Below, in pieces: positions 16,060-18,128 of a stretch of DNA of 22,057 nucleotides; the stretch's first letter is position 1; each line of letters starts with the position of its first letter. Source of the DNA: a virus. Both the position numbers and the translations under genes were made by a program. The notes beneath the pieces are model-generated. The model was not told the DNA's origin and ran no database searches. It saw only the letters and a list, made by a program, of their open reading frames with translations. The stretch lies in IMG/VR virus record IMGVR_UViG_3300020109_000146, positions 1-22,057 of that record, one strand, 5' to 3'.

Positions 16060-17061
16060 TCAGGCAACGTTGCGGAACGCACCAGCACAGGAGACACGCA
16101 CAGGGGCAGCACCATAGGCCAGACGGCCCACGATCACATCACCCTGGTAGATCACCTTGGTGTCAGCACCGGTGGTCTGCACAGCAGGACCGATGGCTTC
16201 CACAACACCAGCAGCATCACGGTGGAAGATCAGGCCGCAAGCATTGGTGAAGTCAGCAGCCACACCGTAGTTGTTGTTCTCACCAGTCACAGCAGTCGCG
16301 TCGATGGCGGTACCGGCAGCAGAGCCATACTTGCCGAGGAAGGGGATGTTGTTGGACTTGTAGATTTTGATACCAGCGATCTCGTAGAGACCTTCGCCGC
16401 TGTTCAGGCTACCACCGGCAGCACCGTACTCGCGGTTCAGGATGTTGGTATCCACCTGGCTGATCAGAGCATAGTACTGACGCGGGGACAGCACAGCCAC
16501 ACGGCCATCCTTAGGAGCAGCGATTTCGTCCAGACGGGCAGCGGCTTCGAAGAAACCATCCACCAGAGCCTGAGCATCATACTCCTTGTTGGCGCCGAGG
16601 TTCACACGGAAGCCACCAGGCTCACCGGTCACAGCAGCAGTCAGACCTGAGGCACGATCCAGCACGCGGAAGATACGACGGTCATAGAACTCAGCCAGAG
16701 CCTGGCCGATCTGACGGGCGATGGGGCCCCGGATGTCGTACTGGGCGAGGGTTTCGTCCAGGTCATACACGAACGCAGAGGCAACCAGCAGGTCGTCCAT
16801 TGCGATGGTGGTCTCAGCCACAGGGGGGTTGCCGCTACCAAGGATAGCAGTGCCGGGGGTATGGAAACCAGCGGTCACACGCCCAGTGTGGATGAATTGA
16901 GCTTCCTTGCCGTTACGCAGGGTGCGGTTCATCACCAGACCCTTGGCAATAGTAGCATTACGGAAGGCCTCATAGACCTCACCGGTGAAGAGCTTCAGAA
17001 ACAGAGCCTTCTTATCGCCAGCTTTATTAGACTGGCCAAGTTGAGTAAGAGTTGCAGTCAC
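16060..17061 (-). CDS. gp10: major capsid protein, T7 gp10-like
   Basis: A 333-residue major head protein (T7 gp10A is 345 residues). The start includes GDKKALFLKLFTGEVYEAF (residues 16-34), matching T7 GDKLALFLKVFGGEVLTAF closely. MNRTLRNGKEAQF and AGFHTPG follow at the E-loop, then a DDLLVASAFVYDLDE segment near residue 90. The annotated start is GTG 17061, giving MTATLTQLG; no Shine-Dalgarno sequence is visible in front of it, surprising for the most abundant virion protein. Third codon positions are visibly richer in G and C than in neighbouring genes, as expected for very high expression. A 227-base leader with structured RNA precedes it and a strong terminator follows. Confidence 0.96.
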   Translation of the reverse strand: MTATLTQLGQSNKAGDKKALFLKLFTGEVYEAFRNATIAKGLVMNRTLRNGKEAQFIHTGRVTAGFHTPGTAILGSGNPPVAETTIAMDDLLVASAFVYDLDETLAQYDIRGPIARQIGQALAEFYDRRIFRVLDRASGLTAAVTGEPGGFRVNLGANKEYDAQALVDGFFEAAARLDEIAAPKDGRVAVLSPRQYYALISQVDTNILNREYGAAGGSLNSGEGLYEIAGIKIYKSNNIPFLGKYGSAAGTAIDATAVTGENNNYGVAADFTNACGLIFHRDAAGVVEAIGPAVQTTGADTKVIYQGDVIVGRLAYGAAPVRVSCAGAFRNVA

Positions 17062-17111: not shown

Positions 17112-17173
17112 AGAGAGATTATTTAATTTGGGGGTTTATCCTTTCCTGGGGTATCCACCGCAGCGGGCCCATT

Positions 17174-17187
17174 CCAGTCATGACTGG
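17174..17187. other. perfect 14-base palindrome in the capsid leader
   Basis: CCAGTCATGACTGG is fully self-complementary, preceded on the minus strand by an A-run (TTAAAAAC). It lies between the cloverleaf and the capsid gene. It may be an operator-like or RNA-processing element; no T-run follows, so it is not a terminator for the minus strand. Confidence 0.5.
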
Positions 17188-17216
17188 GTTTTTAACGAGG
17201 TTGTCCCATCCTCAAT

Positions 17217-17280
17217 AGGGAGTAGTGAGAATTGCACTCACCTCTTCCAGGCTATCTGCCTGGCGCTATCTTAGCCTCCC
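17217..17280 (-). ncRNA. tRNA-like cloverleaf RNA in the scaffold-capsid gap
   Basis: On the minus strand 8 bases after the scaffold stop, one closing stem and three hairpins fold end to end. The closing stem is GGGAG (17280-17276) with CTCCC (17222-17218). Arm 1 is GCTA-AGA-TAGC (17275-17265). Arm 2 is CCAGG, a 7-base loop, CCTGG (17263-17247). A 5-base AAGAG linker follows, then arm 3 GTGAG-TGCAATT-CTCAC (17241-17225). Arms 2 and 3 and the linker have exact tRNA anticodon-arm, variable-loop and T-arm sizes. The loop CAGATAG resembles the tRNA-Ile(GAT) loop but lacks U33. The T-loop lacks the second T, and the D arm is far too small. It is therefore not a standard working tRNA; it may be a decayed tRNA, a processing signal or a leader regulator. 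The pairing is seen; the biology is unknown. Confidence 0.5.
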
Positions 17281-17288
17281 CGGTTTTG

Positions 17289-18128
17289 TTAGATCAGATC
17301 ACCACTTGCGGCAAGCTTCTCTTCAATGTCCAAACGATAGGCAGGGTCATTCCGATAACGAGGATCGGAGATGGCACGGGCCAGTTCAGCTTGGCTACGG
17401 AATCCTTTAACGGTACTCTTCACCGATTTACCAGATACCCGCTTGCCTTCAAATCCAACAGCATCCATGTATCGTTGGTTGAGGGCTTGAACAGCAAAGA
17501 AGATCGCATCCTTGTTGCCACTGTTGACCACGTTATCAAACGCAGCCACCTCATCAGGCTTCAGGTTTTCTGCTGCCCAGGCAAGAGTTTCATTATAGGC
17601 AGACTCACCACCAACGGAAGCAAGGATTGCCTTAGCATCAGTGTCAGACAGTTCCTGCTGTTGGATGGTCGCATTCTTTTGCAGTTCCAGATACGCATCA
17701 ATGAGCTGCTCAGACGGCAGTTCCTTAAGCTTCTGAACGGTCTCTGGTTTTAGTTGGTTAGAGTTGCTGAAGTACTCCTCAGAGGCATCTTTAATAAACT
17801 GGGCAGTTTCAGAAACCTCATCAGCGGATTCCTCCTCTGACTCACTCACATCCTGGGTGTTATCACCCTCTTCTTGAGTGGCTTCATCTTTTTGGCCAAG
17901 TTTCTTTTCCAGCTCCTTGTATGCCTTTTCAAGATCCTCAGCGGACTTAAACTTACCGGCATACCGAAGCTCTGCCTCCTCGGCAGCACGAGCCCGTTCA
18001 TACTTATCGAGGTCACGTGCTTCTTCTTCAGCCATCAACTTATCACCAATGTCCACAAGCCGCGCTTCGTTTTCAAGCCGAGCTTCTGTCACATCAGGAT
18101 CAGTTGCGTCAAAAATGATTTCAGGCAT
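17289..18128 (-). CDS. gp9: capsid assembly scaffolding protein, T7 gp9-like
   Basis: A 279-residue, strongly acidic, helical protein directly before the capsid gene, like T7 gp9 (307 residues). The first 85 residues are charged coiled-coil (LENEARLVDIGDKL, then many E/A/R), with AEDLEKAYKELEKKLG near 62-77. A very acidic linker spans ~80-105. The C-terminus has FRSQAELARAISDPRYRNDP (244-263), a block typical of T7-like scaffolds whose basic end contacts the capsid protein. It would organise procapsid assembly and leave before packaging completes. It starts 11 bases after the small basic protein. Confidence 0.92.
   Translation of the reverse strand: MPEIIFDATDPDVTEARLENEARLVDIGDKLMAEEEARDLDKYERARAAEEAELRYAGKFKSAEDLEKAYKELEKKLGQKDEATQEEGDNTQDVSESEEESADEVSETAQFIKDASEEYFSNSNQLKPETVQKLKELPSEQLIDAYLELQKNATIQQQELSDTDAKAILASVGGESAYNETLAWAAENLKPDEVAAFDNVVNSGNKDAIFFAVQALNQRYMDAVGFEGKRVSGKSVKSTVKGFRSQAELARAISDPRYRNDPAYRLDIEEKLAASGDLI

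Follow-up and report, generated by a model that had tools for sequence, protein, structure and literature searches.

A tRNA-like structure or a fixed-length hairpin precedes the major capsid protein gene of cyanopodoviruses and probably marks a processing point in the mRNA

What is a structure resembling a tRNA doing between the scaffold and capsid genes of a virus? The window, i.e. the whole stretch of 22,057 bases of an IMG/VR virus record analysed in this study, comes from a freshwater-type cyanopodovirus, a T7-like virus of cyanobacteria, and its minus strand carries the structural genes (portal, scaffold, major capsid protein (MCP), and tail genes). The scaffold (capsid assembly) protein gene (17289..18128, minus strand), an open reading frame with a weak DNA match to the annotated scaffold genes of S-CBP2/3, has its stop 8 nt from the start of a tRNA-like structure (TLS; 17217..17280, minus strand), and the MCP gene (16060..17061, minus strand; tblastn 72% to the S-CBP2 major capsid protein) lies downstream of the TLS. 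An earlier reading of the letters of this stretch (hereafter the sequence-only reading) had described the TLS as a four-armed cloverleaf which is unlikely to decode and which could recruit RNase P or other tRNA-processing enzymes to the capsid mRNA.

All the parts of this cloverleaf were found in place on the minus strand, and RNA folding confirmed the four-armed form. Read from 17280 to 17218, it consists of a closing, acceptor-like stem (GGGAG, 17280-17276, with CTCCC, 17222-17218), assigned from the fold and from the geometry that relatives share; a mini arm GCTA(AGA)TAGC at the D-arm place (17265..17275), where other phages have D-like mini-hairpins; a single G; a central arm CCAGG(CAGATAG)CCTGG at the anticodon-arm place (17247..17263); a linker AAGAG; a T-arm mimic GTGAG(TGCAATT)CTCAC (17225..17241) with a UGCAA T-loop signature; and TA before the closing strand. 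The 64 nt fold with -29.0 kcal/mol (67% of the ensemble, z = -3.67), one of 200 shuffles being equally good, and the plus strand folds more weakly (z = -2.4). In a context of 227 nt, the best fold, which is slightly better, pairs the T-arm elsewhere and z drops to -1.2, and thus energy alone does not guarantee a local cloverleaf. Since a 22-kb window offers many stretches that could be folded, a z of -3.7 in one of them is not decisive, and it is the comparative data that settle whether the structure is real.

The likeness to a tRNA lies in the T-arm half, whose dimensions, and whose position before the capsid gene, are borne out by sequence and fold. As compared to a tRNA T-arm (5 bp and a 7-nt UUCRANY loop), the mimic has 5 bp and 7 nt, and retains U54, C56, R57, and A58, with G in place of U55. 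The closing stem, two unpaired layers, and the T-stem (5 bp + 2 + 5 bp) add up to 12 layers, an RNase P-type acceptor/T stack ending in a T-loop, and the 3' trailer without CCA (CTCCC-T-ATTGAGG) is an RNase Z-type feature. The other tRNA features are replaced: a stem of 5 bp (6 with a flanking G-U) plus the two unpaired layers stands for the 7-bp acceptor, the mini arm stands for a D-arm with a GG loop, and CAGATAG, with A at position 33, stands for a 7-nt anticodon loop with U33 and purine 37. The central arm of 5 bp and 7 bases, as first described, is present in the sequence, but the predicted fold is CCAGGC(AGATA)GCCTGG, with 6 bp and a 5-nt loop, and the supposed 7-base anticodon loop probably closes further. 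Likewise, U33 is indeed lost, whereas the loss of both T of the T-loop was overstated, because U54 is kept together with the R57-A58 signature and only U55 is changed to G; this UGC variant recurs before MCP in other phages. ARAGORN called no tRNA in the window, and the Rfam tRNA model RF00005 gave no match in the local stretch even at E = 10. No Rfam 15 family reached its gathering score in the window, the local stretch at E = 10 yielded noise only (rli22, SAM-II, and flavivirus xrRNA, 12-14 bits), and the mascRNA/menRNA model RF01684 was without a match at E = 10.

The exact cloverleaf is rare, as an exact search found only two other contigs carrying it. The window and its relative L001 differ at two of 64 positions, the only two substitutions within the window's own subfamily: one lies in the central loop, AAATA in L001 with the stem unchanged, and the other in the T-stem, CTTAC in L001, where G-C becomes G-U and the pair is retained. 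The scaffold DNA directly upstream is only 72-80% identical, whereas the leader and MCP are 96-97% identical, so that the element, the leader, and MCP travel together. A DNA similarity search for the element in phage records gave nothing informative, its best pieces being matches of T-arm size, one of them in a tRNA-Thr of S-CRM01. Across relatives, the type of element and its position are conserved, whereas this exact sequence is not.

For this place, hereafter the slot, the sequence preceding MCP was read in 23 named cyanopodoviruses and in about 100 distinct relatives fetched by MCP. Twelve of the 23 contain a TLS (S-CBP2, with a weak acceptor, S-CBP3, S-CBP42, P60, Syn5, S-TIP28, S-TIP37, P-SSP7, P-SSP2, P-GSP1, S-SBP1, and NATL1A-7), eleven contain an alternative hairpin, and none is left with neither. 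After both types the same covarying MCP leader follows at about three bases or less; its start (TTGAGG, TTGTGG, or TTGGC) comes 0-3 nt past the slot element, and in some phages that have a psbA/hli cassette between scaffold and MCP the element remains beside MCP. The sequence-only reading had proposed to check whether the arms are lost while the flanking genes are conserved; when this comparison was made, the element survived as a class, with a TLS or the equivalent hairpin filling the slot throughout the cyanopodoviruses. Outside the group, Roseobacter phage CRP-125 (L313) has neither slot form, albeit with a leader-like hairpin GGCCTCATGCGTGAGACAACC, and Desulfovibrio phage ProddE has none of the elements.

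Examples of the TLS are AACTGA-TCTGGTGATTTAT-GGGGGG(TTCGATT)CCCCCC-T-TCAGTT in S-TIP37, ACTGAT-CCGTAAAAGCGGCAA-GGGAGG(TGCAATG)CCTCCC-ATCAGT in S-SBP1, GAGTA-ATCGGTTAAAGCCGATCA-GGGAGG(TGCGAGT)CCTCCC-TACTC in P-SSP7, and GGTAG-AGCTGGTGCGCA-GCAGGG(TTCGATT)CCCTGC-CTACC in Syn5. In P60 (L168) the fold starts within the scaffold coding sequence, and in a freshwater short form, GGGGACTGCAATGTCCCC, the companion arm uses the end of the scaffold gene, closure is weak, and the fold gives two separate hairpins. Some slot elements are recognised as tRNAs: NATL1A-7 has an annotated tRNA-Gly (RF00005, 70.5 bits), the same model scores 39.9 bits in L112, 39.1 in L054, 36.8 in L066, and 34.1 in L048, and ARAGORN calls a tRNA-Asn in L049/L055 and a 'tRNA-Cys' in L112. 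These recognitions make a tRNA ancestry of the class plausible. The ARAGORN calls amount to only three distinct cases, most slot TLSs being rejected, and the Syn5 element matches RF01684 below threshold (23.4 bits, cut-off 42.5).

The TLS geometry is concentrated in the slot. With a descriptor of a 5-bp T-stem, a loop T[TG]CRANN, and an acceptor partner no more than 50 nt away giving 11-13 layers, T-arm plus acceptor was found 33 times in 25.0 kb of slot and three times in 584.8 kb elsewhere at the same loci and strand, a 257-fold difference. A looser descriptor found the T-arm in 53 of 97 regions, a few of the T-arm-only matches falling in the scaffold gene outside the element, and T-arm plus acceptor in 33; on shuffled sequences the rates were 3.7% and 0.9%, and on the reverse strand the counts were 6 and 1. 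In 26 of 41 distinct TLSs the 3' strand of the acceptor has a 6-bp partner within the 60 nt upstream of it in the same phage, as compared to a mean of 6.0 and a maximum of 10 in 50 rounds in which the 3' strands were exchanged among phages, a control chosen to avoid circularity in acceptor detection. Acceptor and T-stem together make 12 layers in 20 of the 41 and 11-13 layers in 38, counts which are descriptive because the acceptor is the best-scoring choice.

The T-loop, the acceptor stem, and the 12-layer acceptor/T helix are retained by the TLS forms. Their anticodon arm is either missing or carries a loop of 4, 5, 6, or 7 nt, and many marine forms are without a central arm. Judged by inspection, the central-arm pairings of relatives hold through changes in the loop. 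In the L066/L070/L067 subfamily the loop reads CCTAGC, CCTAAC, or CAAC with the stem ACTGC/GCAGT intact, L126 has GCGAAA where L128 has GACAA, and between L063 and L072 the stem changes in a compensatory manner from GCCCT/GGGGC to GCCTT/GAGGC around the same TATGA loop. The near copies L048, L054, L062, and L049 have TAT, TGT, CGT, and GTT, respectively, at the anticodon place, with U at position 37. Loops thus vary while stems persist, which argues that decoding features have been lost and structure kept. By eye, a GG in the D-loop clearly accompanies UUC T-loops and not UGC T-loops, but the automatic hairpin call gave only 17 of 32 versus 1 of 9 (P = 0.05), and a cruder test of this association gave no signal; it therefore carries no weight in the argument.

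The alternative hairpin, found in S-CBP1, S-CBP4, S-SRP01, DSL-LC07 (one base different), SS120-1, S-RIP2, 9515-10a, NATL2A-133, S-B28, WH11-B, and MedDCM-S28-C3, has an invariant 15-nt loop CACCTCAGAGTCGGA on a covarying 10-bp stem. A scan of viral contigs gave at least 120 matches (e.g. L175-L254, and L167, L173, L308, and L309). Among the matches listed there are 101 distinct stems; 99-100% of them pair at each of the first five positions, with several types of pair in use, and pairing stops sharply at pair 10, TTG following at position 11 or 12. In 75 of the 76 listed contigs in which MCP was located, the hairpin stands 115-212 nt upstream of the MCP start. Its loop CACCUCAGAGUCGGA can be read as two C-G pairs and a T-loop-like UCAGA, which on the 10-bp helix would make 12 pairs altogether. 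No Rfam 15 family matches the hairpin at gathering score. A host origin was considered and rejected, as 11 exact 17-mer matches in 257 Gb of genomes fell in unrelated taxa, at about the rate of chance.

Past the slot element the MCP leader begins. In the window, a first hairpin GAGG...CCTC (17197..17213, minus strand), corresponding to the leader start of relatives, comes 3 nt past the end of the TLS, and is followed by a perfect palindrome CCAGT(CATG)ACTGG (17174..17187, minus strand) and by the MCP leader hairpin CCGC(TGCG)GTGG with a UNMG tetraloop and a conserved GATACC internal loop (17147..17172, minus strand). The leader hairpin follows every slot element in the form NNNGGC-CNNN(TACG/TGCG/TGAG/TAAG)NNNG-GAYACC-NNN. 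In 149 of 182 relatives it shows 32 distinct inner stems, all of them paired; as the finder requires pairing, the evidence lies in how diverse the stems are and not in the percentage. Most of the other 33 are members of the S-CBP2-like group, which has another form of leader. A phage promoter was also sought: what we take to be the Syn5 RNA polymerase promoter sequence had no match with up to three mismatches in the Syn5 locus or in the window, and since the leader pairs covary, which a promoter would not need, a promoter is disfavoured.

The slot element is usually a mimic of the acceptor and elbow half of a tRNA, rarely able to decode, or else a fixed-length hairpin, and in either form it probably marks a cut in the mRNA that gives the capsid message its own start. 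For the TLS we favour, with about an even chance of being right, the reading that the non-decoding mimic heads the capsid mRNA as a signal for RNA processing, served by RNase P and then by RNase Z. The scaffold-capsid transcript would fold into an acceptor/T-arm stack capped by the T-loop, host RNase P would measure about 12 bp from the T-loop and make the 5' cut, and the 3' cut, just ahead of the conserved UUGAGG leader, would fall to host RNase Z. The scaffold and capsid messages would thereby be separated, and the capsid mRNA would be left with a defined end and with its structured, covarying 5' leader; in other phages, tRNAs, armless tRNA mimics, or the fixed-length hairpin would act in the same slot. 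Many cyanobacterial tRNA genes are without CCA, and its absence from a mimic would therefore be nothing unusual. Substrates are recognised by RNase P through the T-loop, from which it measures 12 bp to the cleavage site, and acceptor/T minihelices are sufficient (PMC11143913); cyanobacteria possess both RNase P and RNase Z (PMC10989914). Recruitment of these enzymes, as the sequence-only reading had suggested, is the best available explanation. The sequences show the structure, its position, the conservation of acceptor and T-arm alongside the loss of decoding features, and the covariation of the leader and of the alternative hairpin, whereas cleavage, the acting nucleases, and an effect on capsid expression are what we infer; no in vivo end mapping or cleavage data for the element were found in the open-access literature. 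Several observations speak against it. The acceptor of the window has only 5 bp and two unpaired layers, another fold is slightly better in the longer context, and the freshwater short type closes weakly. Furthermore, 11 of the 23 phages use the 15-nt-loop hairpin, which is not an obvious RNase P substrate, and thus the common denominator might be another factor. We tentatively consider it possible, short of probable, that the tRNA mimic and the hairpin are two interchangeable processing heads of the capsid mRNA, independent solutions to the same recognition problem, through which host tRNA-maturation enzymes would time or dose capsid synthesis.

That another factor, such as RNase III, RNase E, a phage protein, or an exonuclease-blocking end, acts on a conserved processing or stability element is a somewhat doubtful alternative, in which the tRNA likeness would be a useful T-loop-capped helix or would reflect binding by some other tRNA-handling factor. 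The invariant 15-nt loop and the helix that stops at exactly 10 bp suggest that the alternative hairpin is recognised specifically. RNase III would find a fitting target in the UNMG leader hairpin, which with its conserved internal loop is no less constant, and P-SSP7 induces RNase E in Prochlorococcus (PMC10989914). Nevertheless, such a factor leaves the real tRNAs and the 12-layer acceptor/T mimics of the slot unexplained. We regard it as unlikely that tRNAs are passengers gained repeatedly at this spot and then decayed, which would make the element of the window a functionless relic. Some phages do hold tRNAs accepted by ARAGORN or the Rfam model, and the region does take up psbA, hli, and LAGLIDADG genes. 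However, under such decay the acceptor and T-arm should erode too, yet the 12-layer stack persists and the 6-bp acceptor partner is far above the swapped control; moreover, the element always adjoins the leader, with passengers on its other side, and phages without a TLS have the substitute hairpin instead of an empty slot.

A decoy or antitoxin-type RNA against host defence is very unlikely: an abiF RNA (RF03085) adjoins the TLS in L089, and sub-threshold copies occur in L008, L048, and L054, but the window has none, and a decoy for an anticodon nuclease needs the anticodon loop that is missing in most TLSs. It is hardly credible that the element of the window is a functional decoding tRNA of the tRNA-Ile(GAU) kind, despite the likeness of CAGATAG to an Ile anticodon loop and the good tRNA-Gly that NATL1A-7 has in the same slot. 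The resemblance to tRNA-Ile(GAT) seen in the sequence-only reading is unsupported, since the relative L001 has AAT for GAT and the loop is probably of 5 nt, whereas its view that ordinary decoding is unlikely holds, with U33 lost, no D-arm present, and both ARAGORN and the tRNA model at E = 10 silent.

Non-tRNA phage RNAs are known as RNase P substrates, namely bacteriophage M3 RNA, antisense C4 RNA, and T4 gene 32 mRNA (PMC11143913). The likeness is that the host enzyme handles a non-tRNA phage RNA as a precursor tRNA, which was shown there and which we infer here; those are separate small RNAs or single cases, whereas the cyanopodovirus TLS stands between two structural genes group-wide and is exchanged with tRNAs and a hairpin. 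The designed AT1-type acceptor/T-stem minihelices (PMC11143913) have the 12-bp distance in common with the cyanophage elements, which are natural and carry an added D-like mini-hairpin. Like the mascRNA/menRNA of MALAT1/MEN beta (RF01684), the TLS is a tRNA-like structure with a reduced anticodon arm within a long transcript whose RNA end would be made by tRNA enzymes; those, however, belong to eukaryotic nuclear lncRNAs, and as the only match is the sub-threshold one of Syn5, homology is not claimed. Unlike phage-carried tRNA genes, of which the tRNA-Gly of NATL1A-7 and a few others share the slot, the element of the window and most others cannot decode. The RNase III sites between T7 genes are structured processing sites that divide a late polycistronic transcript; these are plain hairpins and not tRNA-like, in contrast to the tRNA-like slot element of cyanophages. 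The sequence-only reading knew of no described element of such form, which agrees with our searches of open-access text and Rfam 15: no description of the slot element was found in open-access papers, most subscription papers lying outside the coverage. As kinds of element, tRNA mimics and RNase P substrates are known; the novelty is that one of them is conserved across a phage group at the capsid junction and can be exchanged for other forms.

Cyanopodoviruses are abundant in the sea and in fresh water. If our reading is true, an mRNA junction disguised as a tRNA controls one of their most expressed genes, and if the two forms of processing head are true as well, tRNA-maturation enzymes act in this way in phages that are among the most abundant on Earth. 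The slot would then show how, in nature, real tRNAs give way to mimics of decreasing size and to a hairpin unrelated to them, and would serve as a natural experiment on the recognition requirements of RNase P and RNase Z. For annotation, two recurrent structured RNAs are gained, the hairpin with the 15-nt loop and the covarying leader of the capsid mRNA, both absent from Rfam 15 at curated thresholds.

Several minor observations were made in the same regions. The leader hairpin with the UNMG tetraloop and GAYACC internal loop covaries strongly, and a similar one is present in CRP-125 (L313). Perfect palindromes occur past the leader start, in the window (17174-17187, minus strand) and in the gaps of L003, L026, L034, L077, L186, and others (CCAGTCATGACTGG, CCAGTTCGAACTGG, CCAGTCTAGACTGG, and CCAGTCGACTGG, and later AAGTACTT and AAAGATCTTT); they vary as a unit among relatives, and their centres (CATG, TCGA, CTAG) differ between phages yet remain palindromic, which is beyond the needs of an RNA hairpin. 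Directly upstream of the TLS in freshwater contigs, abiF RNA was found above cut-off at L089:2251-2287 (52.2 bits) and below it, with 30.6-33.9 bits, at L008:1464-1502, L048:2913-2951, and L054:3723-3761; carried by the phage, this abiF RNA might serve against AbiF-type defence as a decoy or an antitoxin RNA. A conserved, structured-looking block TGCCCGCGTCCGTGGC...GGCGCGGACAACT, with no Rfam match at gathering score, lies directly past the scaffold stop in L008, L020, L030, and L048. Glutamine-II riboswitch aptamers (RF01704) precede small ORFs between scaffold and MCP in the marine relatives L086, L167, L171, L172, L173, L190, and L226. Finally, some relatives (L002, L013, L038, L041, and L051) have a small ORF inserted between the leader and MCP, in the 350 nt preceding MCP; judged by eye, it resembles a homing endonuclease of the LAGLIDADG type (WAAGLFEGEGS).
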